Positions 20,770 to 48,375 of a stretch of DNA of 64,000 nucleotides are shown here, in pieces (position 1 is the stretch's first letter; every line of letters begins with the position of its first letter). The notes beneath the pieces are model-generated. The model saw only the letters and a program-made list of their open reading frames with translations, searched no databases and was not told the origin of the DNA. Both the position numbers and the translations under genes were made by a program. The stretch is from Pararhodobacter aggregans (GTDB taxonomy: Bacteria; Pseudomonadota; Alphaproteobacteria; Rhodobacterales; Rhodobacteraceae), in the NCBI RefSeq assembly GCF_003075525.1, contig NZ_QDDR01000014.1, positions 1 to 64,000 of the forward strand, in the 5' to 3' direction.

Positions 20770-21916
20770 CGCGCTGGTCATCGGCGCCGGTCCCGCCGGG
20801 CTGATGGCCGCCGACCGTTTGCTGTCTGCCGGATGCTCCGTGCTGCTGGCCGAGGCCAAGCCCTCACCCGCGCGAAAGCTGCTGATGGCGGGCAAGTCGG
20901 GCCTCAACATCACCAGGGACGAGGGGTTCGCAACCTTCCTCGCCGCCTATGCCGAGGCCGCCGACTGGCTGCGCCCGATGCTCGCGGCCTTCGGTCCCGC
21001 CGAGGTGCAGGATTGGATGCGTGGCTACGGGCAGGAGGTCTTCACCGGCTCCACCGGTCGGGTCTTTCCCAAGGCGATGAAGGCCTCGCCCCTGCTGCGC
21101 GCCTGGCTGATGGATCTGGGCGCCCGGGGCCTCGACCTCAGGACCCGCTGGCGCTGGACCGGCGCCGGGTTCGACACGCCCGAGGGGCCGGTTGTGGTGA
21201 CGCCCAAGGCGACCGTCCTGGCGCTGGGCGGTGCCAGCTGGGCGCGGCTGGGCTCGGACGGGGCTTGGGCGCCTTTGTTGGCCGCGCAGGGGGTGGCGCT
21301 GGCCCCGTTCCAGCCGGCGAACATGGGGTTCCGGGTCGACTGGTCCCCGCATATGGCCAAACACTTCGGCCAGCCCCTGAAGAACATCGCCCTGATCGCC
21401 GGCGCGCAGCGGGTCCGGGGCGAGGCGGTGATCTCGGCCCGGGGCTTGGAGGGCGGCGGGATCTATGCCGTCAGCCGTGCCCTGCGCGAAGGGGCGGCGC
21501 TGCGCATCGACCTCTTCCCCGACCTCGAGGCGGGCGCGCTGGCAGAGCGGTTGGCGAAACGGCCGAAGGGCGAGACGTCGGCCAATACCCTGCGAAAGCT
21601 GGGCCTGACCGATGCCCGCCTCGCGCTGGTGCAGGAATTCGTCCGACCGCTTCCCCCCGACCCCGCCGCGCTGCTGAAAGCCCTGCCGGTGCCGCTGCAG
21701 GGCTCCCGCCCGATGGACGAGGCGATCTCGACCGCGGGCGGCATTCCCCGGGCGGAACTGACCGAAGACCTGATGCTGAAACGCCTGCCCGGCTGGTTCG
21801 CGGCCGGTGAGATGCTGGATTGGGAGGCGCCGACCGGGGGCTATCTGCTGACCGCCTGTCTGGCGACCGGACGCTGGGCCGGGGATGCCGCGGCGCGGTT
21901 CATCCAATCCCGGTGA
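20759..21916 (+). CDS. NAD(P)/FAD-dependent oxidoreductase of the HI0933/YhiN family
   Basis: A 385-residue flavoprotein. The N-terminal dinucleotide-binding motif is ALVIGAGPAGLMAADRLL, followed by the family hallmark ARKLLMAGKSGLNIT and a C-terminal GEMLDWEAPTGGYLLTACLATGR FAD-contacting block. The physiological substrate of this family is unknown. The start at 20759 is chosen for MTPDALVIGAG. It ends the maf operon and its last 17 bases overlap the convergent PPTase gene. Confidence 0.9.
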   Translation: MTPDALVIGAGPAGLMAADRLLSAGCSVLLAEAKPSPARKLLMAGKSGLNITRDEGFATFLAAYAEAADWLRPMLAAFGPAEVQDWMRGYGQEVFTGSTGRVFPKAMKASPLLRAWLMDLGARGLDLRTRWRWTGAGFDTPEGPVVVTPKATVLALGGASWARLGSDGAWAPLLAAQGVALAPFQPANMGFRVDWSPHMAKHFGQPLKNIALIAGAQRVRGEAVISARGLEGGGIYAVSRALREGAALRIDLFPDLEAGALAERLAKRPKGETSANTLRKLGLTDARLALVQEFVRPLPPDPAALLKALPVPLQGSRPMDEAISTAGGIPRAELTEDLMLKRLPGWFAAGEMLDWEAPTGGYLLTACLATGRWAGDAAARFIQSR

Positions 21917-22520
21917 GGATGAAGCCCGCGCCGATGGCAAACCGCCCCTCCAGCGCCTGCCCGGCGCGGAACGGGCCGACATCGCGCTGCCAGACGGCGC
22001 GGAACACGCCCTCGCCCAGTTCCACGGCGAAGGTCTCGAAGCCGAAAAGCTGTTTCGTGACAGGATATTGCGCCTTGTAGGCGCATTCCTTGGCGCTGAA
22101 GATCAGCCGCGCTGTCCGTCCATCGGCGCCGCGTTCGCCGGGCAACAGCACCGTTTCCCGCACCTCCTCCGGCAGGTCCTGATCCAGCTCCAGATCAATC
22201 CCGACCAGCCCCGGGCCGGTCACCGCCAAAGCCCAGCCGCCCGCATGGGTGATCGACCCCCGGACCCCCGGCGGCCAGACTGGCGCCCGGTCCGGCCCCA
22301 TCGGCAGCGCCACGTCCCGGCCCAAGGCCGTCCGCGCCGCCGCCCGTCCGGCCGAGAACTCGGCCCGCCGCGCCGGGACCGCGCCAGAAAGCGCGGCCTC
22401 TTCCTCTGGTTTCAGCGAAACACCGTCGACCGGCGCGATCCCAACCGGCAGCCCCGGAAACACCGACGCCGCCAGCCCGAGAAGCTGGCGGCGCAGGAAG
22501 GGATCGCCGGGCGCGCTCAC
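21900..22520 (-). CDS. 4'-phosphopantetheinyl transferase (EntD/Sfp type)
   Basis: A 206-residue PPTase. It has the RAAARTALGR segment, the VRGSITHAGG core, the magnesium-binding GIDLELD, and IFSAKECAYKAQYP with the catalytic Glu and Lys. The architecture matches EntD-like enzymes. It would convert apo carrier proteins to the holo form using CoA. The GTG start overlaps the NRPS stop as GTGA, so it is probably co-translated and dedicated to the PKS and NRPS carrier domains upstream (PKS Ser1776, NRPS Ser1424). Its 3' end overlaps the convergent flavoprotein gene. Confidence 0.92.
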   Translation of the reverse strand: MSAPGDPFLRRQLLGLAASVFPGLPVGIAPVDGVSLKPEEEAALSGAVPARRAEFSAGRAAARTALGRDVALPMGPDRAPVWPPGVRGSITHAGGWALAVTGPGLVGIDLELDQDLPEEVRETVLLPGERGADGRTARLIFSAKECAYKAQYPVTKQLFGFETFAVELGEGVFRAVWQRDVGPFRAGQALEGRFAIGAGFILTGIG

Positions 22521-25500
22521 CCCAGCTTGCTCAGCCGTTCCGCCCGCATCGCCCGGCGCTTGGACATCGCGTCCAGCCGCCCGCGCGCAGCCTCGGCCTC
22601 GACCGCGGGTTCGGCCACCGGGGCGGCCCCCGAGGTGGCCCCCGAGGCGGCGGTCACCGGCTTCAGCTTGCCGTCGATATGGCCCGCCAGCGCCGAGAGG
22701 ACCGGGAAGCGGAACACATCGGTGATCGAGAGACCCGGCAGGGCAAGCCCCTCGCGGATCTCGCGATGCGCCTGCACGGCCAGAAGCGAATGGCCGCCCA
22801 GCTGGAAGAAATTGTCCGAAGGCTTGACCTCGGCCACGCCCAGCACCTTCTGCCAGATCGCCGCGATCCGCGCCTGCGTATCCCCCGCATTGGCCGCCAC
22901 CGGCGCTGCGACGGGTGCCGCGCGGACCACAGCCTGCGGGGCGGGCAGCGCCTTGCGGTCGATCTTCTTGTTCGGCGTCAGCGGGAAGCTCTCCAGCCGG
23001 ACCACGGCCGAGGGCACCATATGCGCGGGCAGCACCGAGGCCAGCTGCGCCTTCAGCCCGGCGGTATCGGCATGGCCCAGCACATAGGCCACCAGCCGCA
23101 CGTCGCCCGGCTGATCCTCGCGCGCCATGACCACCGATTGCGTGACCCCGGGCAGCGCATCCAGCTGCGTCTCGATCTCGCCCAGTTCGATCCGGTAGCC
23201 GCGGATCTTCACCTGATGGTCGGCCCGGCCGAGGAAATCGACCCCGCCATCAGCGCGCAGCCGCACCAGATCCCCGGTGCGATAGAGCCGCTCGCCGCCG
23301 ATCTCCACGAACCGCTCAGCGGTTAGCGCCTCGCGCCGCCAGTAACCGCGCGTGACGCCAGAGCCGCCGATCCACAGCTCGCCCTCCTGCCCCAGCGGCA
23401 CCGGGCGCTGGTCGTCGTCCAGCACATGCAGCGTGGTGTTGGCGATGGGCGTGCCGATGCCGACCACCCCCTCGCCGCCTTTCGACAGCGCGGTCGTGGA
23501 CCAGATCGTCGTCTCGGTCGGGCCGTACATGTTCTGCACCGGCCCGCCGATGATCCCGGCCAGATCGGCGGCCAGCGCGCCCGGCAGCGCCTCGCCCCCG
23601 ACCATCAGCTGTTTCACCTGCGACAGGGCCGCGCGGGCCTCATCATTGCCGGTCAGCATGCGCGCCATCGACGGGGTGCATTGCAGATGCGTCACGCCAT
23701 GGCGCTGGATCTGCGCCGCCAGCGAGAAATCGTCCGCCGCCAGCTGCGCCGGCGCGTTCGAGCGTTTCAGCACCTCGGCCAGCGGCCAGAGCCCTTCCAG
23801 CACCTGCGAGGTGGGGATGCCGTAATCGATCAGGCAACCGATCTCGCCCACGCCGATCCGCTTCAACTGCTCGACGCGGCGCAGGCAATCCTCGACCGTG
23901 CCGAACAGGCCCGAATCCTCGAAATAGCGGTTGAACGCATAATCCAGGATCCCGTCCACCTCGTCCTGGCTGAGCGTGCCGAGGTCGATCTCCATCGGGT
24001 TGGTGGTGCCCTTCGGTTTCTTGAAGGCCGGGAAGGCCCAGGCGTATTGCTTGAGCAGCGCCGCCGCCGACATCAGGTAGCTTTTCATCGGCCCGCGCGC
24101 GGTTTCGCGGGCCAGATCACGGGTGCGCGCCACATAGGTGTGCAGCATCATCGTGACGATATGGTCCTTCGGATCGCGGCCGACCTCGCGCAGGGCCTCG
24201 TGATAGATGGCGATCTTTTCCGCCACCTCGTCGATGGACTGGCCCAGCAGGTGGGTCAGCACGTTGGCGCCGATCCGCCCCGCCTCGCGCCAGGTTTCGG
24301 GGTTGCCGGCGGTGGTCAGCCAGATCGGCAATTCCTTGGACACCGGGCGCGGCAGCGATTGCAGGCTGCGGGTCTCGCCGTTGTGGTCGAAGTCCACCGC
24401 CTCGCCTCGCCAGAGCGCGCGCACCTTCTCGATCGTGTCGAGCATCGCCGCCTTGTTGTTCGGCACCGAGTTTTCCGGTCTCAGCACAAAGTCGACCGGA
24501 TGCCAGCCCGAGGCCATGCCGATCCCGGCCCGCCCGTTGGTCAGATTGTCGATGACCGCCCATTCCTCGGCGATCCTCAGCGGATGGTGCAGGGGCGCCA
24601 CGCAGGAGCCGCCGCGCACGCCGATATTCTTCGTGACCGCCGCCACGGCCGCGCCGGTGACAGAGGGGTTCGGATAGGGGCCGCCGAAGGCGTGGAAATG
24701 GCGTTCCGGGGTCCAGACGGCGCTGAACCCGTGGGTATCGGCGAATTTGGCGCCTTCGAGCAGCAATTCGTATTTCTGGGGCCCCGGGCCGTCGTCATTG
24801 CCCCAGTAGAACAGGCTGAAATCCATCTTCTGGTCGAGGATCGGCAGCGAGCCGCCCGAGACCATCATCCGGTCCTCGTCCGAGGTCAGCACCAGCTTGA
24901 ACCCGCGGGACAGCGTCCAGAAGAGCTCCAGCACCGAGATGTCGAAGGACAGCGAGGTCACGGCCAGCCAGACCCCCGGCGGGTCATGGCGGATGCGGTC
25001 ATCCATCCCGGCGAAGAAATTGGCGACGTTGCGGTGTTCGACCATCACCCCCTTGGGCAGGCCGGTCGAGCCCGAGGTATAGATCAGATAGGCGAGGTTT
25101 TCGGGCGCGGCGCCGGTTTCCGGGTTGGTTTCCGGGGCCGAGGCAAGGCGGGTGTCGGTGTCCAGTACCAGCAGCTCCGCCGCATGCGCGGGCAGCGCGT
25201 CGATCAGCCCCGATTGCGTGACGATCACCGGCGCGCCGCTGTCGGTCAGGAAATGCTGCAAGCGGTCGGCGGGATAGGACGGGTCCATCGGCACATAGGC
25301 GCCGCCCGCCTTGAGGATGCCCAGCGCGCCGATCAGCAGATCGGGCGAGCGGCGGGTACAGAGGGCGACCGGCGTATCCGGCGCGATGCCGAGGCCCTGC
25401 AGCACATGCGCCACCTTGTTGGCGCGGGCGTTGAGCTGGGCATAGGTCAGGCTCACCCCTTCAAAGACCAGCGCCACGGCATCCGGCGTGCGGGCGACCT

Positions 25501-27058
25501 GCGCCTCGAACAGGCGGCTGATGGTCTGGTTGTCGAAATTGCGGGCGGTAGCGTTCAGGCGGTCCATGACCGCGCGCTCCGGGGCGCCGATCCGGTCGAG
25601 GTCGGCGAGCGGCGCATCGCCCGCCCCCGCCAGATGCGCGATCCGCGCGGCGAACAGGTCCAGCGTCGCCTCGTCCAGTTTCGACAGATCGGCCGACAGG
25701 CTCAGCCCCTCGGGTCCGGCCACCAGACACAGCGCCGTGCCCTCGATCCGCTGGCCGGTCTCCGACAGGCCCAGCGCAGGCAGGGCCAGCGGCATCAGGG
25801 CCGGGTCACGGCCGATCAGGTCGCGCGCATAGGCCGGGTGTTGCGCCGCCCTCGCCATCAAATCCGAAATCGAGGCCTCTATGGCGCCAAGGCTTTCGCC
25901 TTTGGGCGCCATCGGCAGCCAGCCCGCGATATAGGCGGGCGCCGCGGCCTGGGCCGCCGCCGTCGCCTGACCGCGATAGGCCCAGCCGCCCGGGGCATAG
26001 GCAGCGATGATCGCCGCCGCGCGGGCCGCCGAAACGCCGGTCAGCGCGCGGGTGGTGATGCCCTGCCCCTGTGCCCGGGCCGACACTTCCGCCGGGGCGA
26101 AGCCCTGCAGCGCCTTGCGCCAGCCCGCCTCGCCCGGGGCCAGTGGTGCCATCGCCTCGGTCAGCGCGGGGTCGGGCAGGGGCAGAACCTCACCCACCGC
26201 AACCACATCGCTTTCGGGCAGTCCGCCCAGACAGGTGATCCCGCCCAGTCGCACCGCGCCACTGCCGCAGGCGATGACCGGCTCGTCACCGGCCTCCAGC
26301 ACCTTGCCCGGGGCACCCTGACCCTCCATCACCTCGGCCGAGGTCACGGCGAAGATGCCCTTTGCCGTCTCGATCTTCGGCAGCGCCAACGGGTTCCAAT
26401 AGCCGCCGTGATCCAGCGCGCGGACCAGCTGCGCCAGCTCCTCGGCCGGACGGGCGAAATCGAGCCGCGCCGCCGTCGCCGGCCGGTCGTCGCGCTTGCA
26501 AAGCGTGCGCTGGCTCAGATCCTGTGCGCGACGGCCGGGGATCCCGGCCTCCAGCGCGCCGACCACGAAGGGGAAACTCTCGATGGCGGCGGCATAGCAG
26601 CGCGCGTTCAGCGAAAAAGCCGTGTCGTCCGGGGCGATGTCGAACAGCGCCTGCTCGACGATATCGCCCTCGTCCACCCCGCCCTCGATCAGATGCCAGG
26701 TGATCCCGTGCCGTGCCTCGCCCTGCATCAGCGCCCAGACCGGCGCGTTGAGCCCGGCGTAGCGCGGCAGCGGGCCGTCGTGGAAATTGACCGCGCCCTT
26801 GGCGGCACGCGACAGCAGCGCTTCGGGCAGGACAGAGAGGTTGGCGATGGACAACAGCCAGTCGAAATCCGCCGTGATCCTGTCCTCGATCCCCTTGCCG
26901 GGCGCCACCACCGGGATGCCCGCGCCGGTGGCCCAGGCGATGACCTCGGAATTGCGGCTGGCGACGGTGACGATCCGGTGTCCGCGGCCGGTCAGCACCT
27001 TGGCGCATTGCACCAGAAGGGATTCGTTGCCCACCAGGACACATGAAAACGGCGTCAT
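22517..27058 (-). CDS. NRPS initiation-like module: formyltransferase, adenylation with inserted luciferase-like monooxygenase, carrier protein
   Basis: A 1513-residue single NRPS module. Residues 1 to about 290 resemble methionyl-tRNA formyltransferase and keep N91, H93 and D129 in the expected spacing. About 300-490 looks like a remnant of a condensation domain without a visible HHxxxDG. The adenylation domain starts near 505 (TSGSTGLPKG at about 660) and is split after the A4 motif (SFDISVLELFW). A flavin luciferase-like monooxygenase of the MupA/Atu3671 type is inserted at about 745-1095. MYGPTETT, the YRTGDLVRL block and NKKIDRKALP follow. The carrier domain has LGGHSLLAV with Ser1424. 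No thioesterase is present. The start at 27058 follows an AGGAGAG site. It lies one base after the GT2 stop and overlaps the PPTase start. Substrate and product are unknown. Confidence 0.9.
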   Translation of the reverse strand: MTPFSCVLVGNESLLVQCAKVLTGRGHRIVTVASRNSEVIAWATGAGIPVVAPGKGIEDRITADFDWLLSIANLSVLPEALLSRAAKGAVNFHDGPLPRYAGLNAPVWALMQGEARHGITWHLIEGGVDEGDIVEQALFDIAPDDTAFSLNARCYAAAIESFPFVVGALEAGIPGRRAQDLSQRTLCKRDDRPATAARLDFARPAEELAQLVRALDHGGYWNPLALPKIETAKGIFAVTSAEVMEGQGAPGKVLEAGDEPVIACGSGAVRLGGITCLGGLPESDVVAVGEVLPLPDPALTEAMAPLAPGEAGWRKALQGFAPAEVSARAQGQGITTRALTGVSAARAAAIIAAYAPGGWAYRGQATAAAQAAAPAYIAGWLPMAPKGESLGAIEASISDLMARAAQHPAYARDLIGRDPALMPLALPALGLSETGQRIEGTALCLVAGPEGLSLSADLSKLDEATLDLFAARIAHLAGAGDAPLADLDRIGAPERAVMDRLNATARNFDNQTISRLFEAQVARTPDAVALVFEGVSLTYAQLNARANKVAHVLQGLGIAPDTPVALCTRRSPDLLIGALGILKAGGAYVPMDPSYPADRLQHFLTDSGAPVIVTQSGLIDALPAHAAELLVLDTDTRLASAPETNPETGAAPENLAYLIYTSGSTGLPKGVMVEHRNVANFFAGMDDRIRHDPPGVWLAVTSLSFDISVLELFWTLSRGFKLVLTSDEDRMMVSGGSLPILDQKMDFSLFYWGNDDGPGPQKYELLLEGAKFADTHGFSAVWTPERHFHAFGGPYPNPSVTGAAVAAVTKNIGVRGGSCVAPLHHPLRIAEEWAVIDNLTNGRAGIGMASGWHPVDFVLRPENSVPNNKAAMLDTIEKVRALWRGEAVDFDHNGETRSLQSLPRPVSKELPIWLTTAGNPETWREAGRIGANVLTHLLGQSIDEVAEKIAIYHEALREVGRDPKDHIVTMMLHTYVARTRDLARETARGPMKSYLMSAAALLKQYAWAFPAFKKPKGTTNPMEIDLGTLSQDEVDGILDYAFNRYFEDSGLFGTVEDCLRRVEQLKRIGVGEIGCLIDYGIPTSQVLEGLWPLAEVLKRSNAPAQLAADDFSLAAQIQRHGVTHLQCTPSMARMLTGNDEARAALSQVKQLMVGGEALPGALAADLAGIIGGPVQNMYGPTETTIWSTTALSKGGEGVVGIGTPIANTTLHVLDDDQRPVPLGQEGELWIGGSGVTRGYWRREALTAERFVEIGGERLYRTGDLVRLRADGGVDFLGRADHQVKIRGYRIELGEIETQLDALPGVTQSVVMAREDQPGDVRLVAYVLGHADTAGLKAQLASVLPAHMVPSAVVRLESFPLTPNKKIDRKALPAPQAVVRAAPVAAPVAANAGDTQARIAAIWQKVLGVAEVKPSDNFFQLGGHSLLAVQAHREIREGLALPGLSITDVFRFPVLSALAGHIDGKLKPVTAASGATSGAAPVAEPAVEAEAARGRLDAMSKRRAMRAERLSKLG

Positions 27059-27059
27059 C

Positions 27060-28016
27060 TCAACTCTCCTGCACAAGCCTTTTCGCGGGGCGCGATCCGA
27101 AGCTGTGTTTCAGAAGATCGCGGAGAAAATATGGCGGATTAACCTTTGGTTTCCTTTGAACCAGGACCCGGGCCCCATAGATGCCCAGCCCCGCCACATG
27201 CGCCAGCGTCGCCGCCATGGCGTAAAGCGCCCCGTGGTTCTTTTCGAAATAGTACCGGCGCGAGCGGAACCAATAGTCCGGCACCCGCCGCCATTCCTTC
27301 ATGCCGGTCGAGACCGAGCCCAGATGCATGACCCGGCTTTCGACCACATAGACCGTGGGCCAACTGGCCATGGCAGCGCGGCGGCAGAGGTCGGTTTCCT
27401 CGAAATAGAGGAAGAACGTCTCGTCGAAGAGGCCGATTTGGTCCAGCACGGCCTGCCGCATCAGGACCGAAGCCCCCGCCAGCCAATCCACCCGCGTTGT
27501 CTGTGTCGGCAGCGGCGGCGCGACAATCGCGTTCTTCAACAGCTTCGACACCGGCCCGGTCTTCGCCGCCCCCTCGAATTCGCTGGCGATGGAGGGGAAG
27601 CGGAACGCCGTGGTATGCGGTTCGCCATCCTCGCCATGGATGTGGCTGCCGGCGAAGCCGACCTCGGGATGGGTGTCGAGGTAATCGACCAGCGCCCGGA
27701 TCGCATCGGGCGCGGGGAAGGCGTCCGAGTTCAGGATATAGACGTAATCGGGGCTCGTGCCGTCCGGCAACCCTGCCCGGATGCCGACATTGTTGCCCGC
27801 GCCGTAGCCGCCGTTGCGCCCCGACTGGATCACCCGCACCCGGGGCCAGTCTTTCGCGGCCTCGGTCATCGCCTCGAAACTGCCGTCCTGACTGTCGTTG
27901 TCGACGATGGTGATGGCGCCGGGAATACCCTCCATCGCCACCAGCGCGGCTTCGGTGGCTTTCAGCGTCATCTCCGCCGTTCGCCAATTCAGGATCACGC
28001 AAAGCACGCTGTTCAT
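27060..28016 (-). CDS. Family 2 glycosyltransferase (rhamnosyltransferase-like)
   Basis: A 318-residue GT2 of the GT-A fold. It begins VLCVILNWRTAEMTL and has IVDNDSQDGS, the acceptor-side GGYGAGNNVGIR and the nucleotide-sugar/metal region YILNSDAFP. DETFFLYFEETDLCRRA is the ED-type catalytic block seen in WbbL-like rhamnosyltransferases. A hydrophobic stretch near residues 255-280 suggests membrane association. It is wedged between the PKS (4-base overlap) and the NRPS gene (1-base gap), so it probably glycosylates their product or a carrier-linked intermediate. The donor sugar is not determined. Confidence 0.9.
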   Translation of the reverse strand: MNSVLCVILNWRTAEMTLKATEAALVAMEGIPGAITIVDNDSQDGSFEAMTEAAKDWPRVRVIQSGRNGGYGAGNNVGIRAGLPDGTSPDYVYILNSDAFPAPDAIRALVDYLDTHPEVGFAGSHIHGEDGEPHTTAFRFPSIASEFEGAAKTGPVSKLLKNAIVAPPLPTQTTRVDWLAGASVLMRQAVLDQIGLFDETFFLYFEETDLCRRAAMASWPTVYVVESRVMHLGSVSTGMKEWRRVPDYWFRSRRYYFEKNHGALYAMAATLAHVAGLGIYGARVLVQRKPKVNPPYFLRDLLKHSFGSRPAKRLVQES

Positions 28017-31000
28017 GCCTCGGCCTCCGCGATCAGGGCTTTCAGTTTCGCCGCCATCACCCGCACATTCGGCTCCAGCACCATGCTGTCATGGTCGCCC
28101 GGCACCTCGTGGACCGAGAGCTTCGGCATGAACCGCGACCAGTCGTTGTCGTCAAAGACGTATTCCTTGGCCCGGCTGACCCAGCGCCCGCCCGTCACCT
28201 TCCAGTGACGGTCCAAGGGCGGCCGGAACAGCGCAACCGGCGCATCATAGCGGTCGAGCGCGACGAAGGGCAAAGCCTCGCGGAAGGCGGTTTCGATGGC
28301 GCGGTTGTGGAAGCCACTGTCGGCCTCGCCCGCGGCCTCGTCGGCCATGCGCGCCTGTTCCTCCTGCCAGCGTTTCCGGTCAGCCAGCCATTCGCCCAGA
28401 TAGGCGGGGCCCTTGCGGCGGAATTCGGCCAGCTTGATCGCCGCCTTGTCAGCACGGCTCAGCCACGGCCGTTCCGGCAGCGGCGTGTCGAGCAGCGTCA
28501 GCAGCCGGACCTCCTCGCCCGCCGCCCTGAGCTGCTTGGCCATCTCCAGCGCCGTCAGCCCCCCGCCCGAGAAGCCGCCCAGCAGATAGGGGCCATGCGG
28601 CTGCACCTGCCGCACCTCGGCCAGGTAATCGCGCGCCGCCTCGTCCAGCCGCCGGTGCGGTTCGGCCCCGCCCAGCAAGCCCCGGGCCTGCAAGCCATAG
28701 AAGGGCCGGTCCTTGCCCAGCAGCTGCGCCAGATGCCGCAGGTTCAGCACGTTGCCGAACATGCCGGCGACCAGGAAGAACGGCGTCTTCTCCCCGCCCT
28801 CGCCCTCGTGCATCGGCACCAGGAATTCGTAGCGCTTGACGGGCGCCGCGACGGCCGGGGCCTCGCCGGTGTCGCTGATCCCGGCGATGTCGGCGACGCG
28901 GGCGGCGATCTTTTCCACCGTCGGGGCCTCGAACAGGACGGAGATGGGGAAATCCACGCTCCATGTCTTCTTGACCCGCGCAAACAGCCGCACCGCGATC
29001 AGCGAATGCCCGCCCAGATCGAAGAAGCTGTCCTCGACGCCGACGCCCTCGACCCCAAGCAATTCTTCCCACATGGCGACCAGCATCCGCTCCACGTCAT
29101 TGCGCGGCGCGACATAGGCGCTGTCGAGGTTGGGACGCTCGAATTTCTGCCCGTCGCCGGTCTCGGCCTCCAAGGGCTGCGCGGCCTCGGCGATCAATTC
29201 CGGCAGTGTTAGAGACGAAATCACCACCTGCGATCGCCCGGTCCCCAGCGCCCGCAGGAAGGCCTCGCTCCCCTCCATGGGCGTGATGCCCTGCGCCAGA
29301 TTGCGGGCCAGACGCGCCTCGCCGGGGCTGAGCGCGCGGTCGGCACCGGCGTCGGTGAACTCGACCTCCGAGGGCAACAGCGGCGCGGGCGCGCCAAAGC
29401 CGCCTTCCAGCCGCTTGATGGTAAAGCGCCGGATCTCGGCGCAGACGCGGCCCTCGGGCGTCGCCAGCGTCACGTCGAAACTGGCGAAACCGGGTTCGGC
29501 GGGGGCGATGCGGATATGGCTGACGATCTGCGCGGGCAGGGCGGAATAGACCCTGACATTGCCATAACTGACCGGCACCCAGAGCGCGCGGCCCTGATAG
29601 CCGGGGATCAGCTCCATCGCCCAGCCGGTCGCCAGATCCATCAGCGCCGGGTGCAGGACATAGCCCTGATCCAGATCGCCGCGGAAGGCTTCGGGCAGGG
29701 ACAGCCGGGCGATCCCCTCGCCCGCGCCATAGGCCACGCGGTTCAGCACCCGCCAGCGGGGGCCGAAGTTGAGGTGATGCTCCTGCCCGGTGGCGATGCC
29801 GCCCGCGTCCTCGCGAATGCCGGTCAGGCAGCGCGCCTCGGTTCCGGCCACATCCAGCCCAGCGGCGGGGGCAATCGCCCCCATGTTGACCCTGGCCGAG
29901 GCGTTCAGCACGAACCCCTGCCGCCCGCGCAGGCTGACCTCGGAGCGCAGCGCGAAATCGTAGCCCGCGTCCGAGCGGGTCAGCACCACCTCCACCGCCT
30001 TCGGCTGGTCCACCTCCAGCGCGCGGAAGAAGGTCAGGTCGGCGATCTCGAAAGGCTCGACCTCGCCCTGGCCGTGCAGCGATTGCACGGCGATTTCCAG
30101 GATGCCGGTGCCGGGGACCAGCGCCTTGCCGTCCTTGGTCCGGTGTTCGTCCAAGAGCCACATGTCGGTGGAATAGGTCGCTGTGAAGCGCCGGTTCATC
30201 GAGGCGTCGAAACCCACCCGGTCCAGCAAAGGGACCGTTGCGGGTGCGTCGGGCAAAGCGGGGGCCTTGCCGCTGCGGGCGGCCATCGCCTCGGCCGCCA
30301 TGCCGACCTCGGCCCAGATGCCCCAGTCGATGGCGGTGACTTTCGTCTTGCCGCTGCGGGCCTTGGCCCAGGCGTTCAGGTATTCGTTCGCCGCGACGTA
30401 ATCGACCTGCCCGGCGGGCGCGGTGAGCGTCGAGGTCGAGGAGAAGACGACGATCCGCTCCACCGCGCCGTCGGGCAACAGCGCGTCGAGGACCCGCGTG
30501 CCGTGGACCTTGGGCGCGAAAACCGATTCCACGCTGCCGACGGTCTTGGCGGCGAGCGGCGCGTCGTCGATGGCGCCGGCCGCGTGGATCACGCCGTGGA
30601 CCGCGCCGAAGCGGGCTTTCGCGGCATCGAACGCGCGGCGCATGTCGTCGATGTTGCAGACGTCGGCGGCGGCCACCATCACCTCGGCGCCGAGCGATTC
30701 CAGTCTCTCGACCTGCAGAATCCGGCGCAAGGCGGGCCCGCCCTGGGCCTTCACCGCCTCCCATTCCGCGCGGGGCGGCAGGGCGGTGCGGGCCAGCAGT
30801 ACGATCTTCGCCTTGGAGCGCTGGATCAGCGCCTCGCCCACCGTCTGGCCGATCCCGCCGAAGCCGCCGGTGATGACCCAGACCCCGCCTTGCGGCAGGT
30901 CGGGCAGCGCGTCCAGCCCCTGCGGGCGCAGGCGTTGTTCATAGCGTTTTCCGTCCCGCAGCGCGGCGACCGCGGTCGAGGGCGCGGCCAGCAGTTCCTC

Positions 31001-34000
31001 CAGCAGAGCCGCGGTCTGATCCGGGCCGCGCTTGCGGGTCCGGGGCTCGATATCCAGCGTTGAAACCGTGATCCCCGGCATTTCATGCGGCATGACCCGG
31101 GCGGGCCCGGCGATCAGCGCCTTTTCCGGCCAGCGCAAAGCCTCATCGCGGACCTGTGCCGCGCCGGCTGTGATCACAAAGCTATGGATCGGGCCGGCCA
31201 GTCCCTCGGCGGCGATGGCCTGGCCGAGGAACAGCAGCGAATAGAAGCCCTGCTCGACATGCGCCTGAAACGCGCTGGAACCGGGGCGGAAATGCTCCTC
31301 GCCGCTCGCCAGCCAGAAATGGGCGATGCGGGTCGGGATCGTGCCACGATGCACCAGATCTTGCATCAGCTGGTCATAGCCCTCGCGCCCGCGTTCGGGC
31401 GGCAGGGTATAGGCGCTGTCGCCCCGGCGGCGGAAGGTGTCGCCGGCCTGAACCTCGATCACCTTCTGCCCCCCGGCGCGCAACCGGGCGAGGATCGGCG
31501 CGGCGATGCCGTCCTGATCGGCGAAGATGAGCCAGGTCTCGGCCATCGAGGCGAGCGCGGCATCCATATCCGCCTCGACCTCGGCCGAGCGGGCGACCCA
31601 GGCGAGCCTTGTGCCCATCTGCGTCACGTCCTCGATCCGGGCGGGCAGCGCGACGGCGGTTTCGGCCACGGGCTTGGCGGGGGCGATGAAGTATTCGCGG
31701 CGTTCGAACGGGTAGGTCGGCAGCGGCAGCTTCACCCGCCGCGCCTCGCCCCAGATCTGGCTCCAGTCGAAGGACCCGCCCAGCGCCCAGATCCGGCCCA
31801 GCAGGCCCATGTGATAGAGGTCGTCGGCGATGGCTTCCTCAGGATGGCGCAGGACGGCCAGAACCTGCTGGCCGGGGACCGCGCCATGCATCCGGGTCAG
31901 CGAGGACAGCGCCTTGCCCGGCCCCACCTCGATCCAGATGCGATTGGGATTTTCGGCAAGGTTAGAGACACATTCGGCAAAGAGAACCGTGTTCCGCAGG
32001 TGCTGCGTCCAATAGTCCGGGCTGGTCGCCTGTTCGGCGGTCAGCGGCTGGCCGGTGCGGTTCGAGATGATCGGCAGGCGCGGCGCCTGCAGCGGGATGG
32101 AGGCGAGGAAGGCGCGGAACTGGCCGAGGATCGGCTCCAGCATCCGGGAATGCGCGGCGATGTCGATGGCGATGCGCTGGGTGTCGATGCCGTCAGCCGA
32201 GAGGCGCGCGGCCAGATCGACCAGCGCCGCATCGGGGCCGGAGACGACGGTCAGTTCCGGCGCGTTGACGGAGGCAATGTCCAGATCGCCCAGATAGGGG
32301 GTCAGTGCCGCGACCGACAGCGGCACCGAGAGCATCCCGCCCGCGGGCACCGTGTCGAAGAGCGAGCCGCGCAGATGCACCAGCGCGATGCAATCCTCAA
32401 ACGACAGCACCCCGGCAAGACAGGCGGCGGTATTCTCGCCCATCGAATGACCGACCAGCGCAGCCGGTTGCACGCCCCAGGCCATCAGCATCTGCGCCAG
32501 CGCGTATTCGGTGATCATGATGAGCGGCAGCTGGACGGAGGGTTTTTTCAGTGCCTCGTCGGCCGCGGCCTCGGCCCCCTTTTCGGGCAGCCACAGGGCG
32601 CGGATGTCGTAGGAAAGGCGCGGTTGCAGGATCTCCAGCCCCCGGTCCATCCATTCGGCGAAGACCGGCTCGGTCTCGTAGAGGTCGCGCGCCATGCCGG
32701 CGTATTGCGCGCCGCCGCCGGGGAAGAGGAACACCACATCGGGGTTGTCCAGCGCGGTATGGGTGAAGACCCGGCGCGGGTTGTCGGATTCGAGCAGGTC
32801 GGCGGCTTCCTCGGCCGTTTCCGCGACGACCACGCGGCGCTTGTCAAAGGCGCGGCGGCCCTTGTGCAGCGTCCAGGCGGTATCGGCGAGGTCGATGCCG
32901 GGATTGGCGCGCAGATGCGCGGCGAGCCCCTTGGCCTGCGCGTCGAGTGTGGATTTCGACCGGGCGGAGAGGGTGAACAGCTGGAACGGCCAGTCCGATT
33001 CCTCGGACGGCGCGCGGGCGGGCGCTTCCTCCAGGATCGCATGGGCATTGGTGCCGCCGACGCCCAGCGAGTTGATGCCGGCGCGGCGGGGATGGCCGCG
33101 CTGCTCCCAGGGGGTCAGCGCGGCGTTGACGGCGAAGGGGGAGGTGGCGAAGTCGATGGTCGGGTTCGGCGCCTCATAGCCCAGGGACGGCGGGATTTCC
33201 CGGTGATGCAGCGAGAGCGCGACCTTGATGAGGCTGGCCACCCCGGCGGCGGTGTCCAGATGCCCGATGTTGGTCTTGACTGAGCCGATCTTGCAGAATT
33301 GCACGGCGTCGGTCTGGTCGCGGAAAGCCTGGGTCATGGCGGCGACCTCGATGGGGTCGCCCAGATAGGTGCCAGTGCCGTGGCATTCGATGTAATCGAC
33401 CGTCTCGGCGGGCACATCGGCCACCGCCTGCGCCTCGGCCACGCAGCGCGCCTGCCCCTCGACAGAGGGCGCGAGATACCCCGCCTTCTGCGCCCCGTCG
33501 TTGTTGATGGCGGAGCCCTTCAGCACGGCCCAGATATGGTCGCCATCCCGCACGGCATCGGCCAGCCGCTTCAGCACCACGCAACCGGCGCCCGAGCCGA
33601 AGACGGTGCCCTGCGCCCGGTGGTCGAAGGCGTGGCATTCGCCATCGGGGCTGAGGATCTCGTTTTCCTTGTAGAGATAGCCGTGCATCTGCGGCAGTTC
33701 GATGGTCACGCCACCGGCCAGCGCCAAGTCGCATTCGCCCGACAGCAGCGCCTGCGCCGCGTAATGCAGCGCGACCAGCGAGGTGGAGCAGGCGGTCTGC
33801 ACGTTCACCGAGGGGCCGCGCAGGTCGAAGATGTGGCTGACGCGGGTGGACAGGAAATCCTTGTCGTTGCCGGTGTGGCGCAAAAGGAAGGCGCCGACAT
33901 CGCGCACCAGATCGCGGTTCGAGTTGATGTTGACCCAGTAATAGGTCCCCTGCCCGCAGCCGGCGTAGACGCCGATATTGCCCTCGAAAGCCTCGGGCAC

Positions 34001-34330
34001 GGTGCCGGAATCCTCCAAAGCCTCCCACGCGACCTCAAGGAACTGGCGGTGCTGGGGGTCGAGGATCGCGGCCTCTTTCGGCGAGAAGCCGAAGAACTCC
34101 GCGTCGAATTCGGCGAAGCCGTTCAGCGGCGCGGCGAAGGGGACGTAGTTCGGCAGGCGCATGACGGAGGAGTCTTCGCCCGCGGCCAGAAGCTCGTCCT
34201 CCGACAGACGGCGGATCGCCCGCAGCCCGCCGCGCAGCATCGTCCAATACTCGCGGACCGATCCTGCCCCCGGCAGATGCGCGGCCATGCCGGTGATGGC
34301 GATATCGGTATCGGAGATTTCAACGGACAT
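28013..34330 (-). CDS. Type I polyketide synthase, KS-AT-KR-DH-ACP-TE
   Basis: A 2105-residue single-module PKS. KS spans about 8-430 with Cys181 in TACSTS, then ECHGTG and KTNIGH. AT is about 525-830 with Ser629 in GHSMGE. KR is about 1145-1340 with VITGGFGGIG and Tyr1311 in VDYVAANEY. DH is about 1375-1660 with His1396 and Asp1565. ACP has Ser1776 in LGGHSLIAV. A thioesterase follows (about 1825-2100) with Ser1921 in GGFSGGG and His2080 in PGDHDSM. There is no enoylreductase, so an unsaturated extension unit is expected. All catalytic residues inspected are present. The odd feature is the domain order, with KR before DH. There is no loading domain, so the adjacent NRPS module may provide the starter. 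The product is unknown. Confidence 0.95.
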   Translation of the reverse strand: MSVEISDTDIAITGMAAHLPGAGSVREYWTMLRGGLRAIRRLSEDELLAAGEDSSVMRLPNYVPFAAPLNGFAEFDAEFFGFSPKEAAILDPQHRQFLEVAWEALEDSGTVPEAFEGNIGVYAGCGQGTYYWVNINSNRDLVRDVGAFLLRHTGNDKDFLSTRVSHIFDLRGPSVNVQTACSTSLVALHYAAQALLSGECDLALAGGVTIELPQMHGYLYKENEILSPDGECHAFDHRAQGTVFGSGAGCVVLKRLADAVRDGDHIWAVLKGSAINNDGAQKAGYLAPSVEGQARCVAEAQAVADVPAETVDYIECHGTGTYLGDPIEVAAMTQAFRDQTDAVQFCKIGSVKTNIGHLDTAAGVASLIKVALSLHHREIPPSLGYEAPNPTIDFATSPFAVNAALTPWEQRGHPRRAGINSLGVGGTNAHAILEEAPARAPSEESDWPFQLFTLSARSKSTLDAQAKGLAAHLRANPGIDLADTAWTLHKGRRAFDKRRVVVAETAEEAADLLESDNPRRVFTHTALDNPDVVFLFPGGGAQYAGMARDLYETEPVFAEWMDRGLEILQPRLSYDIRALWLPEKGAEAAADEALKKPSVQLPLIMITEYALAQMLMAWGVQPAALVGHSMGENTAACLAGVLSFEDCIALVHLRGSLFDTVPAGGMLSVPLSVAALTPYLGDLDIASVNAPELTVVSGPDAALVDLAARLSADGIDTQRIAIDIAAHSRMLEPILGQFRAFLASIPLQAPRLPIISNRTGQPLTAEQATSPDYWTQHLRNTVLFAECVSNLAENPNRIWIEVGPGKALSSLTRMHGAVPGQQVLAVLRHPEEAIADDLYHMGLLGRIWALGGSFDWSQIWGEARRVKLPLPTYPFERREYFIAPAKPVAETAVALPARIEDVTQMGTRLAWVARSAEVEADMDAALASMAETWLIFADQDGIAAPILARLRAGGQKVIEVQAGDTFRRRGDSAYTLPPERGREGYDQLMQDLVHRGTIPTRIAHFWLASGEEHFRPGSSAFQAHVEQGFYSLLFLGQAIAAEGLAGPIHSFVITAGAAQVRDEALRWPEKALIAGPARVMPHEMPGITVSTLDIEPRTRKRGPDQTAALLEELLAAPSTAVAALRDGKRYEQRLRPQGLDALPDLPQGGVWVITGGFGGIGQTVGEALIQRSKAKIVLLARTALPPRAEWEAVKAQGGPALRRILQVERLESLGAEVMVAAADVCNIDDMRRAFDAAKARFGAVHGVIHAAGAIDDAPLAAKTVGSVESVFAPKVHGTRVLDALLPDGAVERIVVFSSTSTLTAPAGQVDYVAANEYLNAWAKARSGKTKVTAIDWGIWAEVGMAAEAMAARSGKAPALPDAPATVPLLDRVGFDASMNRRFTATYSTDMWLLDEHRTKDGKALVPGTGILEIAVQSLHGQGEVEPFEIADLTFFRALEVDQPKAVEVVLTRSDAGYDFALRSEVSLRGRQGFVLNASARVNMGAIAPAAGLDVAGTEARCLTGIREDAGGIATGQEHHLNFGPRWRVLNRVAYGAGEGIARLSLPEAFRGDLDQGYVLHPALMDLATGWAMELIPGYQGRALWVPVSYGNVRVYSALPAQIVSHIRIAPAEPGFASFDVTLATPEGRVCAEIRRFTIKRLEGGFGAPAPLLPSEVEFTDAGADRALSPGEARLARNLAQGITPMEGSEAFLRALGTGRSQVVISSLTLPELIAEAAQPLEAETGDGQKFERPNLDSAYVAPRNDVERMLVAMWEELLGVEGVGVEDSFFDLGGHSLIAVRLFARVKKTWSVDFPISVLFEAPTVEKIAARVADIAGISDTGEAPAVAAPVKRYEFLVPMHEGEGGEKTPFFLVAGMFGNVLNLRHLAQLLGKDRPFYGLQARGLLGGAEPHRRLDEAARDYLAEVRQVQPHGPYLLGGFSGGGLTALEMAKQLRAAGEEVRLLTLLDTPLPERPWLSRADKAAIKLAEFRRKGPAYLGEWLADRKRWQEEQARMADEAAGEADSGFHNRAIETAFREALPFVALDRYDAPVALFRPPLDRHWKVTGGRWVSRAKEYVFDDNDWSRFMPKLSVHEVPGDHDSMVLEPNVRVMAAKLKALIAEAEA

Positions 34331-34420: not shown

Positions 34421-35932
34421 TCACAGCAGCGTCCGCGGCCCGCGGTCCTGGGCCTCGGTCGGACGCAGGCCCAGCACGATCCCGCCATGCGCCCGGCGGA
34501 GCGAGTCGCGCTGCACGGCGTCGGTGGCGCGTTTCATCGCCTCGGCATAGCCCAGAAGCGCCCCGGCGATGAGCCAGGTGAAGGGAATGAGTGTGGCATT
34601 GGGCAGCATGTCCAGCATGTTGACCGCAAGGATCAGCGCCAGTGTACTGGCTTCGATGCGCAAGGGCGCGGCGCCTTTTCGTCGCGCCTGCCAGGTCAGG
34701 GACAGCACCGGCAGCGCCATCAGGCCGAAAAGCGCCAGATAGCCCAGCCAGCCGTAATGGCCGATGGTGATGATCCACTGGCCGTCGACCACGCTCTCGC
34801 TTTCGCCGGTGGCCTGGTCATAGACCGCGAAACGGCCCCAGCCGCCCCAGCCGAACAAGGGCCTCTCGGACACGTGGTCAAGGATGCGCTGTTCGTTGGT
34901 GAAGCGGTATTCCAGCGATTCCCGCCGATCCTCGCTGACCGCCGAGACCTGGTCCAGGATGGCCCGGGTCGGCACCAGACCGGCGCCGCGCAGCAGGGGA
35001 TAGGTGACCACCAGCAAGACGATCAGGCTGGAGACCATCAGATGCAGCCGTGGCCTCATGATCAGCACCATCGGCACGAAGATCAGCGTGTACATCAGCG
35101 GCCCCATGGACTTGGTCAGCAGCACCAGTCCGAAACCGGCCAGAACCAGCAGCAGTTTCAGCCCGGCCCGGTTGTCGGCGCCCCGGGCGGCGCGGGCCCG
35201 GGCGGCGGCGGCCATGGTCACCATGAAGGCGAAGAACGCGACCCAGAGCCCGTGCGGCATGAAGACGAAGGGCCGGAAGCCGCCCTGCCGGATCGCCTGG
35301 TTGAAATCGTGCTGGAAGAAGCCGTAGAGCCTTGTGTGCAGTTGCGGCGACATCCGCACCTCGTAGAGCATCGGCAGGGTATAGATCGCCCCGGCGATGA
35401 CCAGCGCCAGCAGGATCTCGCGCAGGCCCTCGTCGGTTTTCAGCACCTCGCGCGCCAGAAAGAAGGGCAGGGCGAAGAAGATCTGCTGCACCAGTACCGA
35501 GGCGGAATCGTAGATCCTGAGCCCGGGCAGCCCCCAGGTTTCCAGCGCATTGGGATCGACCAGCCGCATGGTGCCGAAGGTGTCGATGCCGAAGCGGATC
35601 GGATCGGTGTTGGTGACGACCGTGACCACCGGGCTGATGAGGAACATGACCAGCAGCACGCGGCCGATCCAGGCCTCGGGCAGCGGCTTGGGCATCTTGC
35701 CCCAATAGGAGAGGCAGACGGCAAAGGCCATCAGGTTGGGGATGCTCTCCTTGTTCAGGGGCGGGATCAGCGGCAGGTCGATGGCGCTGATCTGCGGCAG
35801 CAGCATATAGGCGCCGAGGATCGACCAGATCAGCGCCCGGGTCTGCGGCATGACCCGGAAGAACCAGACGATGACCACCGGCCAGCCGACCAGCGCCAGC
35901 AAGGCGACGATATTGCCGATTTGGATCAACAT
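34421..35932 (-). CDS. O-antigen ligase/polymerase-like membrane protein (Wzy/ExoQ type)
   Basis: A 503-residue polytopic inner-membrane protein with roughly ten or more hydrophobic helices. A large periplasmic-type loop (about 330-390, containing RILDHVSERPLFGWGGWGRF) carries the H-x-P-x-G-W-G pattern typical of the WzyC/O-antigen ligase superfamily. It would polymerise or ligate lipid-linked oligosaccharides. The flippase and Wzz genes in the same region fit a Wzx/Wzy export route. Family assignment rests on topology and this loop, so ligase versus polymerase is unresolved. It diverges from the WecG-like gene and is 90 bases upstream of the PKS. Confidence 0.75.
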   Translation of the reverse strand: MLIQIGNIVALLALVGWPVVIVWFFRVMPQTRALIWSILGAYMLLPQISAIDLPLIPPLNKESIPNLMAFAVCLSYWGKMPKPLPEAWIGRVLLVMFLISPVVTVVTNTDPIRFGIDTFGTMRLVDPNALETWGLPGLRIYDSASVLVQQIFFALPFFLAREVLKTDEGLREILLALVIAGAIYTLPMLYEVRMSPQLHTRLYGFFQHDFNQAIRQGGFRPFVFMPHGLWVAFFAFMVTMAAAARARAARGADNRAGLKLLLVLAGFGLVLLTKSMGPLMYTLIFVPMVLIMRPRLHLMVSSLIVLLVVTYPLLRGAGLVPTRAILDQVSAVSEDRRESLEYRFTNEQRILDHVSERPLFGWGGWGRFAVYDQATGESESVVDGQWIITIGHYGWLGYLALFGLMALPVLSLTWQARRKGAAPLRIEASTLALILAVNMLDMLPNATLIPFTWLIAGALLGYAEAMKRATDAVQRDSLRRAHGGIVLGLRPTEAQDRGPRTLL

Positions 35933-36873: not shown

Positions 36874-36956
36874 CCCGCCTTCTGCCCCCCGTTTGCGATT
36901 GCATCCGCGCCCCTCGCCGGGCATGGTGACGCAACTTTTTCAACCGGGAGGAAATG

Positions 36957-38065
<1,109 letters not shown>

Positions 38066-38066
<1 letters not shown>

Positions 38067-40000: not shown

Positions 40001-40117
40001 CCTACCCCCGCACCGGGGGATTATGGGGGCGGCCCGGGCCCTGTCCAGCGTGCAGGTTTTTCTGGGCAAAGGCACCGCGATGTGTTGCATTCCTGCCTAA
40101 CCACAGGAGGAGAGACC

Positions 40118-46655: not shown

Positions 46656-46775
46656 GACTGACCCTTCGCGACGGCCTGCGGAGCGTCCGCGCCCCGCCAT
46701 TTAACCCTCTGGTGACGGGAAAGCCTGTCACAAATAGGGCAGAAGCGTGGTCATTGTCGATGAAACCGGCGCGGT

Positions 46776-48143: not shown

Positions 48144-48375
48144 ATCTAACACTCCGGAAATTGGGTACTTTCAGGCGGCCGCTTCAAGGGGCGCGGCCCA
48201 TATTCAACGCAATGAAGGTTAATTGGGGCGCCAGTGTGGCGCGGGCTTTTGGAATGTGGCGAAAATGGGGCGGGGGTCTTTGCGGTCCGTCGCCGCGCCA
48301 ATTCCCTCTGCTTTTCTTGAATTTGCCTGAATTGACCCCTAGCCCGGAGGCCAACCAGACAGCCAAGGTGACGGC

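Follow-up and report, generated by a model that had tools for sequence, protein, structure and literature searches.

A formylating NRPS-like protein and a type I PKS linked to exopolysaccharide genes in Pararhodobacter aggregans may supply a polysaccharide acyl group

The window analysed here is the whole stretch of 64,000 nucleotides (positions 1-64,000, forward strand) of contig NZ_QDDR01000014.1 of Pararhodobacter aggregans (GCF_003075525.1). Four genes are arranged head to tail on its minus strand, encoding a type I polyketide synthase (PKS), a family 2 glycosyltransferase (GT2), an NRPS-like protein composed of formyltransferase (F), adenylation (A), and thiolation (T) domains with a monooxygenase (MOx) inside the A domain, and a phosphopantetheinyl transferase (PPTase) (Table 1). 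The gaps of -4, +1, and -4 bases given in the original prediction are all present: PKS and GT2 overlap by four bases (28013-28016), the GT2 stop codon (27062-27060) is followed by a single G and the NRPS start codon ATG at 27058, and NRPS and PPTase again overlap by four bases (22517-22520). The mechanical call places the NRPS start at TTG 27076, instead of which the ATG is used here. All four genes have coding-like GC content at the codon positions (GC3 0.82-0.88, GC2 0.47-0.54), and terminators and sigma-70-type promoters are no commoner than in shuffled sequence. A defence system was rejected, as none of the four proteins has a PADLOC match.

Table 1 Features of the four-gene set and of the surrounding polysaccharide locus
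Feature	Position	Strand	Evidence
Sfp-type PPTase, 206 aa	21900..22520	-	PF17837, PF01648 (4PPT_N, ACPS)
NRPS-like protein, F - possible remnant C - A(MOx) - T, 1513 aa from ATG	22517..27058	-	Pfam, TIGR04020
Thiolation (carrier) domain	22676..22870	-	PF00550
MupA/Atu3671-type FMN monooxygenase inside A domain, between A4 and A5	23771..24820	-	TIGR04020
Formyltransferase domain (N and C parts)	26177..27058	-	Pfam; model pLDDT 95.6
GT2, 318 aa	27060..28016	-	Glycos_transf_2, Glyco_tranf_2_3
Type I PKS, KS-AT-KR-DH-carrier(LGGHSL)-TE, 2105 aa	28013..34330	-	Pfam; conserved catalytic residues
Wzy/O-antigen-ligase-like protein, 90 bases upstream of PKS, same strand	34421..35932	-	PF04932
WecG/TagA/CpsF glycosyltransferase	36097..36873	+	PF03808
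Wzz chain-length determinant	44442..45746	-	PF02706
P-loop ATPase adjoining Wzz, probably BY-kinase-like by position	45759..46700	-	PF10609/PF01656
Wzx flippase	46776..48152	-	PF13440/PF01943
GT4 glycosyltransferase	48376..49596	+	PF00534/PF13692
Second GT2 of the locus	49569..50393	-	PF00535
568-aa protein without Pfam match	50390..52096	-	Pfam scan

The NRPS-like protein contains the Pfam domains Formyl_trans_N and C, AMP-binding, which is interrupted by Bac_luciferase, and PP-binding. The model of the F domain matches ArnA (1z7e, 2bln; VIA Z 26.6) and methionyl-tRNA formyltransferase (1fmt; 26.3), with the VIA structural rows mostly spanning residues 1-293 of the protein. The N/H/D triad of F and the serine of T are kept in all 78 aligned NRPS rows, and the F-domain motif reads HDGPLP, differing from HPSLLP, which we take to be the formyltransferase motif. 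In the PDB, the protein as a whole is closest to the initiation module of LgrA from linear gramicidin synthesis (E 4.5e-219), which shares the F, A, and T domains and the formylated starter. LgrA has no monooxygenase and starts with valine. In addition, the A stretch starts at residue 202-204 in LgrA F-A constructs but at residue 516 in the window protein, so that F and A are not adjacent, and in the window system, unlike LgrA, a separate PKS takes the next step. The fold, the triad, and the LgrA match agree with the formylating starter module proposed earlier, a function predicted from sequence.

The monooxygenase insert (residues 753-1102) lies between the A4 aspartate (residue 712) and the YGPTE motif, which starts at residue 1184. 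It scores 464.4 bits with TIGR04020, against a cut-off of 244.45, and matches PuwE (PDB 6ket, E 5.2e-101). The adenylation code of the window protein is DILQMGMIWK; across the 78 rows it reads D-I-L-Q-(M/L/F)-G-M-I-W-K with single exceptions, seven of the ten positions being invariant. Eight of ten positions equal DILQLGLIWK, presumably the code for glycine. The glycine-like code predicts glycine as the amino acid of the A domain, and by analogy alpha-hydroxylation is the likely oxidation step. The "N-formyl, possibly oxidised, aminoacyl starter" of the original prediction is thus narrowed to a probable formylglycine, likely alpha-hydroxylated.

This arrangement resembles that of MtaG and MelG (myxothiazol, melithiazol), in which, according to the passages of PMC10204066 on these modules, a glycine module carries a monooxygenase at the A4-A5 position and cleavage yields an amide plus a glyoxyl thioester. 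MtaG and MelG end the chain as an amide, whereas the window module starts it, carries F, and has its TE on a separate protein, the PKS; the chain-ending layout with a condensation domain before and a TE after is absent. In SolF module 4 (solanimycin), too, the A domain for glycine carries a flavin monooxygenase, which yields alpha-hydroxyglycine, but the insert is located between A8 and A9, and the module lies in the interior of a longer assembly line (PMC10204066, same passages).

About 210-220 residues separate F and A. Only the last ~56 profile positions of this segment match PDB chains of NRPSs (best E 9e-7), and one of 55 members matches Pfam Condensation (E 0.034), so the segment may be the remnant of a condensation domain. 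PF00668 has no match anywhere in the genome, which makes the PKS the evident acceptor of the NRPS starter and supports, at the level of domain content, its predicted place as extender after the NRPS.

The PKS contains the Pfam domains ketoacyl-synt, Acyl_transf_1, KR, PKS_DH_N/PS-DH, PP-binding, and Thioesterase. In an alignment of 74 rows (the window protein and 73 ORFs longer than 1900 aa from 79 loci), the KS C/H/H, AT S/H, KR K/S/Y/N, DH H and D, carrier S, and TE S/D/H residues are all identical in 74 of 74. Together with the 78 NRPS rows, this confirms that the catalytic residues of the domains are intact. A KR glycine is kept in 73 rows, and a DH position that is usually Q or H is G, also in 73. 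The AT extender motif is IAAH (I or V, A, A or G, and H across the rows), equal to neither HAFH nor YASH, which we assume to be the usual motifs; malonyl is the probable extender unit. Pfam detects no enoylreductase domain in the PKS, which is therefore unlikely to yield a saturated chain by itself. Iterative action of the PKS is possible.

Relatives widely encode the F-A(MOx)-T protein: of 390 genomes drawn at the level of the window's order, 159 are positive, representing 64 of 139 genera (E 1e-30, with an alignment of eight alphaproteobacterial sequences as the query). Outside the family, five positives were found in the class draw (385 genomes) and five in the phylum draw (398), one being common to both and some being partial matches. 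Among the best 80 of at least 534 loci, ranked by likeness to the F region, tblastn detects the GT2 in all 80, the PKS in 79, the PPTase in 66, and a polysaccharide gene in 65; in the 60 of these loci that are at least 20 kb long, the counts are 60, 60, 57, and 57. Since this set was chosen by F-region likeness, a sample of 20 loci was added, hand-picked at about every eighth row among the order-tally matches listed. The PKS is adjacent in 20 of them, the GT2 in 19, and the PPTase in 16, and in two of the four PPTase misses the stretch ends there. This repeated co-occurrence rules out a chance assembly of unrelated genes and strongly bears out the claim that the four genes act as a unit. Moreover, NRPS distances track PKS distances (r 0.90 over 2016 non-independent pairs, without a significance test). 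The same four genes thus recur in relatives as anticipated, but not in a fixed order: the GT2 does not separate PKS and NRPS in every locus, and the PKS is divergent from the NRPS in the Rhizobiales plasmid loci L005, L006, L008, and L114 and in L175. At E 0.01, the PPTase is the genome's only PF17837 match.

The window also holds the Wzx flippase, Wzz, and glycosyltransferases that a Wzx/Wzy-dependent exopolysaccharide locus requires. The Wzy-like protein scores 30.1 bits with PF04932 (Wzy_C), just below the cut-off of 31.7. No initiating sugar transferase (Bac_transf) is present among the 42 window ORFs scanned; the gene is found in relatives, for example L002. A homologue of the 568-aa protein in L023 has an SGNH-like N-terminal part, judging from sequences compared by eye. 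A formaldehyde link, suggested by a neighbouring Zn-alcohol dehydrogenase and esterase (36954-38896) that could tie in with formyl or formamide chemistry, was set aside, with a homologue seen only in the closest relative, L010; this is a weak test, as in L011-L014, which come next in relatedness, the flanking sequence stops short of that position.

The association with polysaccharide genes extends beyond this genome to many marine Rhodobacteraceae. With the window's own proteins as queries, polysaccharide genes were detected within the stretch in 18 of the 20 sampled loci but in just 2 of the 20 controls, which were stretches from 12 of these genomes, upholding the proposed link to exopolysaccharide genes. 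The two sampled loci with no match (L119, L122) are both shorter than 20 kb, and three of the 60 long loci (L043, L058, L074) have none. Of the 95 loci whose sequence reaches far enough, 61 have a Wzx or Wzy homologue on the PKS strand no more than 1.5 kb upstream of the PKS; the 95 are partly redundant (L118/L030 and L120/L057 recur between sets). NRPS-PKS pairs are also located in polysaccharide loci of Methylobacterium (L113) and Rhizobiales (L005, L006, L114), and a Deinococcus locus (L112) has F, A-MOx-T, and PKS inside a polysaccharide locus.

Distant loci show a different context. A supported clade (L009, L173/L184, L177/L185) encodes F-A-MOx-T and PKS, and neither Wzx, Wzy, and Wzz nor any other query protein has a match there, which shows that the pair can function in other settings. 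The PKS of L009 and that of L185 are fused to further NRPS parts. An annotated GT2 lies ~16 kb upstream and an exosortase XrtD ~14 kb downstream in L009. Among 12 stretches at more distant F-region matches, some of which end at contig ends, six (L178-L183) have no PKS, indicating that F domains occur in other NRPSs too.

We favour, with moderate confidence, the reading that the set builds a single short acyl group and passes it on for use in a Wzx/Wzy-dependent exopolysaccharide. The chemical steps, the number of extensions, the TE as transferase, and the role of the GT2 we infer as follows. The PPTase would arm both carrier domains, and the A domain would load glycine onto T. The F domain would formylate the glycine amine with formyl-tetrahydrofolate as donor, and the inserted FMN monooxygenase would hydroxylate the alpha carbon to give N-formyl-alpha-hydroxyglycyl-S-T, or, if the carbinolamide breaks, glyoxylyl-S-T and formamide. 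The KS would accept the starter and add probably one malonyl unit, followed by reduction by KR and dehydration by DH. The TE would then transfer or release the acyl group, which would become a substituent of or link in the polysaccharide repeat that the GT2 would help to build. Both fates had been proposed for the product; decoration of exopolysaccharide fits the conservation better, and a free product to which the GT2 adds a sugar ranks as the weaker option. Also in favour of decoration, 23 of 79 loci contain an SGNH-like gene, in 14 of them within 130 bases of the PPTase; the model of its protein best matches SGNH esterases, weakly (best E 2.7e-4), including carbohydrate esterases and PatB. 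Counting against decoration are the absence of this SGNH-like gene from the window, the distant clade and the loci with no polysaccharide match described above, the 34 of the 95 sufficiently long loci that have no Wzx/Wzy upstream of the PKS, another KS-bearing frame (769 aa) in the genome, and the lack of a known sugar acyltransferase among the four genes. The relevant part of PMC6519341 proposes a carrier-protein pathway (wfpC-wfpG) for a dihydroxyhexanoyl group on the Wzx/Wzy O-polysaccharide of Flavobacterium psychrophilum, which differs in using type II fatty-acid-like enzymes and a PglD-like acyltransferase, with no NRPS, formylation, or type I PKS.

The set might instead produce a small compound that diffuses away, be it a signal, a metallophore, or an antibiotic, and that the TE hydrolyses off, with the polysaccharide neighbours marking a common hot spot or a common surface-lifestyle regulon. 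The intact TE triad, the L009, L173, and L177 relatives, which have no Wzx/Wzy-type neighbours, and the free peptides begun by formylating modules elsewhere, as by LgrA, are consistent with such a product. We consider it rather unlikely, as the four genes include no transporter, receptor, or resistance gene, the polysaccharide context persists in several orders and in Deinococcota, and Wzx/Wzy genes so often precede the PKS. MFS and EamA transporters are encoded in the window, 20 kb and more from the set.

RkpA/WcbR-type capsule-linked synthases are proposed to supply an acyl chain that anchors or primes a polysaccharide. An iterative PKS could likewise build a longer chain here, with the NRPS product as head group, and the single-module KS-AT-KR-DH-TE, the GT2 in the same gene run, and PKS distances that track Wzy distances (r 0.83) would suit this; the missing enoylreductase speaks against a saturated chain, and we judge the idea improbable. 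Compatible with any of these readings is a variation in the chemistry, MtaG-like fragmentation to formamide and glyoxylyl-S-T, which would lose the formyl group and leave a two-carbon aldehyde as the starter. The A4-A5 insert and the glycine code are as in MtaG/MelG, but SolF retains alpha-hydroxyglycine (both from the cited passages of PMC10204066), and an F domain conserved in 78 of 78 rows would be wasteful, which renders this variant doubtful.

A far more speculative form of the polysaccharide reading, to which we give little credence, is that the NRPS-PKS line installs an N-formyl-carbinolamide (a masked aldehyde) or an unsaturated extension on the polymer for later unmasking and amine cross-linking, with the PKS TE as sugar acyltransferase and an SGNH protein of relatives trimming the product. 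If true, much of a marine bacterial family would make a chemically adhesive slime.

Roseobacters and related bacteria are known to colonise surfaces. If the pair, found in about four of ten genomes drawn from the order, belongs to exopolysaccharide, a "secondary metabolite" cluster would be a cell-surface part, and tallies of such clusters for the group would need rereading. Within the full-text literature searched, it would also be the first example of a modular assembly line devoted to a substituent of a polysaccharide. In line with the original prediction, that literature, which covers few subscription journals, contains no description of the four-gene system. Roseobacter NRPS and PKS genes are listed without product in genome papers (PMC4062626, PMC3910554), and the listing passages name Inhi_1972 (PKS) and Inhi_1974 (NRPS) of P. 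inhibens and Daep_00050 and Daep_00048 of P. daeponensis as secondary-metabolite genes, giving neither product nor polysaccharide link. These Phaeobacter pairs are one locus tag apart, as in the window, and the gene between them is probably a GT2.

The four genes encoding the type I PKS, GT2, NRPS-like protein and Sfp-type PPTase are separated by junctions of -4, +1 and -4 bases, and the codon-position GC is coding-like in all of them. The PPTase is the sole match to PF17837 in the genome. A Wzy/O-antigen-ligase-like gene, scoring 30.1 bits with PF04932 (cut-off 31.7), is located 90 bases upstream of the set on the same strand; beyond it lies WecG and, further out, Wzz, a P-loop ATPase, Wzx, a GT4 and a second GT2. 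The opposite flank carries an exonuclease-type RNase T, an HI0933-like FAD protein, Rho, MnmE, GidA, GidB, ParA and ParB. The set therefore lies at the edge of the polysaccharide locus, bearing out the placement made in the original prediction. Inside the polysaccharide region, a Zn-alcohol dehydrogenase is paired with a putative esterase, probably of the formaldehyde-detoxification type. In addition, a thiolase-type ORF and an AMP-ligase ORF overlap by 310 bases, and one of the two probably starts further in than called.

Coordinates of the gene set and of other features in the window and in loci of relatives (L-numbers)
Feature	Coordinates	Strand	Remark
Type I PKS, GT2, NRPS-like protein, Sfp-type PPTase	window 34330-21900	-	four genes
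Zn-alcohol dehydrogenase and putative esterase	window 36954-38896		
Thiolase-type ORF	window 39080-41287		
AMP-ligase ORF	window 40978-42882		
568-aa protein	window 50390-52096		
SGNH-like protein	L059:7380-8354		directly after PPTase, as in a number of relatives
SGNH-like part fused to 568-aa homologue	L023:16245-18770		
Separate F gene, A-MOx-T, PKS	L112:13723-26770		Deinococcus actinosclerus
Second adenylation-domain protein	L007:1-2567		Paracoccus marcusii plasmid

The NRPS-like protein is composed of a formyltransferase region (F; Formyl_trans_N and C), a segment of about 210-220 residues, an adenylation (A) domain split by a monooxygenase (MOx), and a carrier domain (T). The inserted monooxygenase belongs to the MupA/Atu3671 family of FMN enzymes (TIGR04020, 464 bits, cut-off 244) and aligns with the PuwE domain of solved structure (E 5.2e-101). 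The first 504 residues, counted from the ATG, were modeled with AlphaFold (48 sequences, mean pLDDT 95.6); the model resembles ArnA (Z 26.6 and rmsd 2.6 over 281-284 aligned residues) and methionyl-tRNA formyltransferase (Z 26.3 and rmsd 3.0 over 285), these matches covering mainly residues 1-293. The final part of the segment between F and A resembles NRPS chains at their C-A junction region (best E 9e-7). The PKS has the order KS-AT-KR-DH-carrier-TE. Across 74 rows, comprising the window plus 73 ORFs of >1900 aa out of 79 loci, all checked catalytic residues are kept save one KR glycine in one row, and the second DH motif has G in 73 of the 74, where Q or H is usual.

Read from motif anchors, the ten specificity positions of the A domain are D-I-L-Q-M-G-M-I-W-K, identical at eight of ten positions to the glycine code DILQLGLIWK. 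Across 78 rows seven positions never vary, two differ in a single row each, and another holds M, L or F in 76 rows. One report places the monooxygenases of myxothiazol and melithiazol at A4-A5 of glycine modules, with alpha-hydroxylation and then cleavage to an amide and a glyoxyl thioester; hydroxyglycine is retained in the case of SolF (PMC10204066). A search of the genome gave no condensation-domain match, so that no known domain there would form a downstream peptide bond. The genome has four ketoacyl-synthase matches (the PKS of the set, another frame of 769 aa, and frames of 402 and 425 aa), among which the set's own PKS is the evident partner of the NRPS-like protein.

Relatives of the NRPS-like protein are encoded in at least 534 stretches, as found by searching genome contigs. 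The best 80 are mostly from Rhodobacteraceae, together with seven Burkholderiales loci, including Hydrogenophaga. Four Burkholderiales rows cluster as one clade (support 1.0) amid Rhodobacteraceae rows (0.955) when 36 proteins are placed in a midpoint-rooted tree, a topology pointing to probable transfer. L027-L029 and L031, from Hydrogenophaga and another Burkholderiales locus, have the same four-gene order as the window and group with Rhodobacteraceae in the tree. With an F-region profile at E 1e-30, the protein turns up in 159 of 390 genomes sampled from the order, which the nearest named loci indicate to be Rhodobacterales, and in 64 of 139 genera, with one match per row among the matches listed. 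Thirteen of 18 genomes drawn from the genus, that of the window included, match essentially the whole profile at >500 bits; G016 matches its first third, G005 its second half at a contig start, and three have weak matches alone.

The set is closely associated with polysaccharide genes, for which the window's own proteins served as queries. The best 80 of the at least 534 loci contain GT2 in 80, PKS in 79, PPTase in 66 and a polysaccharide gene in 65, the sole locus lacking the PKS being a 3.6-kb contig (L065). For the 60 loci of at least 20 kb, the counts are 60, 60, 57 and 57, with two or more polysaccharide genes in 47. Because these 80 are the closest relatives, we added 20 positives of the order draw (about every eighth row of the matches listed; stretches of 10.6-20 kb), which contain PKS in 20, GT2 in 19, PPTase in 16, any polysaccharide gene in 18 and two or more in 17. 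The controls (20 stretches of 20 kb, 12 of the same genomes) contain none of the first three, any polysaccharide gene in two and two or more in one. Wzx or Wzy lies no more than 1.5 kb upstream of the PKS, on its strand, in 61 of 95 loci and not in 34, leaving out 15 further loci with too little sequence; the distance is within 470 bases in 55 of 60 among the matches listed. Pairwise distances of the NRPS-like protein correlate best with those of the PKS (r 0.90 over 2016 non-independent pairs, as a descriptive value), followed by Wzy (0.85), GT2 (0.73), PPTase (0.72) and Wzx (0.68). On a Paracoccus marcusii plasmid (L007), the polysaccharide locus also holds a second adenylation-domain protein, annotated beside a WecG-type gene.

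Outside Rhodobacteraceae the arrangement varies. The PKS is divergent from NRPS-PPTase, with no GT2 between, in L005, L006, L008 and L114 (Shinella, Aminobacter, Rhizobium and Neorhizobium) and in L175, and L176 has a divergent NRPS/PKS pair with no PPTase match; all six have polysaccharide-type matches nearby. NRPS and PKS are consecutive in L113 (Methylobacterium bullatum) and L172, both with GT4 and an epimerase near, the former with a Wzz-like gene just below cut-off and the latter with a DegT gene. In L112 (Deinococcus actinosclerus), a separate F gene with the motif HPGPLP precedes A-MOx-T and a PKS ending in a condensation domain at the usual place of the TE; the neighbors include genes annotated as CapK, UDP-glucose 6-dehydrogenase and sugar transferase, and a GNAT/FemAB-like gene adjoins. 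Six more distant stretches from three genomes (L178-L183), some cut by contig ends, have an F-type NRPS and no PKS match.

We lean modestly towards the reading that the set makes a dedicated acyl group for the Wzx/Wzy-dependent polysaccharide. A carrier-based acyl pathway, in which a PglD-like transferase acts together with enzymes of type II, has been proposed for such a polysaccharide in Flavobacterium psychrophilum (PMC6519341). That the set instead makes a diffusible product is unlikely given the association with polysaccharide genes, but the TE of the PKS speaks for it, as does a clade lacking Wzx/Wzy neighbors. In this clade (L009, L173/L184 and L177/L185; support 1.0), which has F-A-MOx-T and a PKS, the polysaccharide queries have no match over about 32-40 kb, a Pfam scan covering a few of the neighbors; this counts against an exclusive tie of the pair to polysaccharide. 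L009 has an annotated GT2 and exosortase further out; its PKS, like that of L185, is fused with additional NRPS parts. By eye, an alpha/beta-hydrolase-like ORF adjoins the PKS in L184 and L185.

Acyl-decorated polysaccharide is a known kind of system; the variant feature here would be an assembly line as the source of the acyl group. A full-text literature search found no description of this system; in the available parts of two reports, PKS and NRPS of Phaeobacter genomes are one locus tag apart, with no product given (PMC4062626, PMC3910554).

An SGNH-like protein of about 300 residues, absent from the window, is found in 23 of 79 loci, and its G-H-S and D-x-I-H motifs are invariant in 18 aligned rows. 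Among 16 loci with a called PPTase ORF, the gene lies within 130 bases of it in 14, seven with a 4-base overlap. The best matches of its model (pLDDT 89.3) are weak and are SGNH esterases, including carbohydrate esterases and PatB (best E 2.7e-4, TM 0.41 by query). In L023 the SGNH-like part is fused to a homologue of the window's 568-aa protein, which has no Pfam match and has tblastn matches in 12 of the 80 loci; its stretch FSNEIWNW is reminiscent of glycoside hydrolases.
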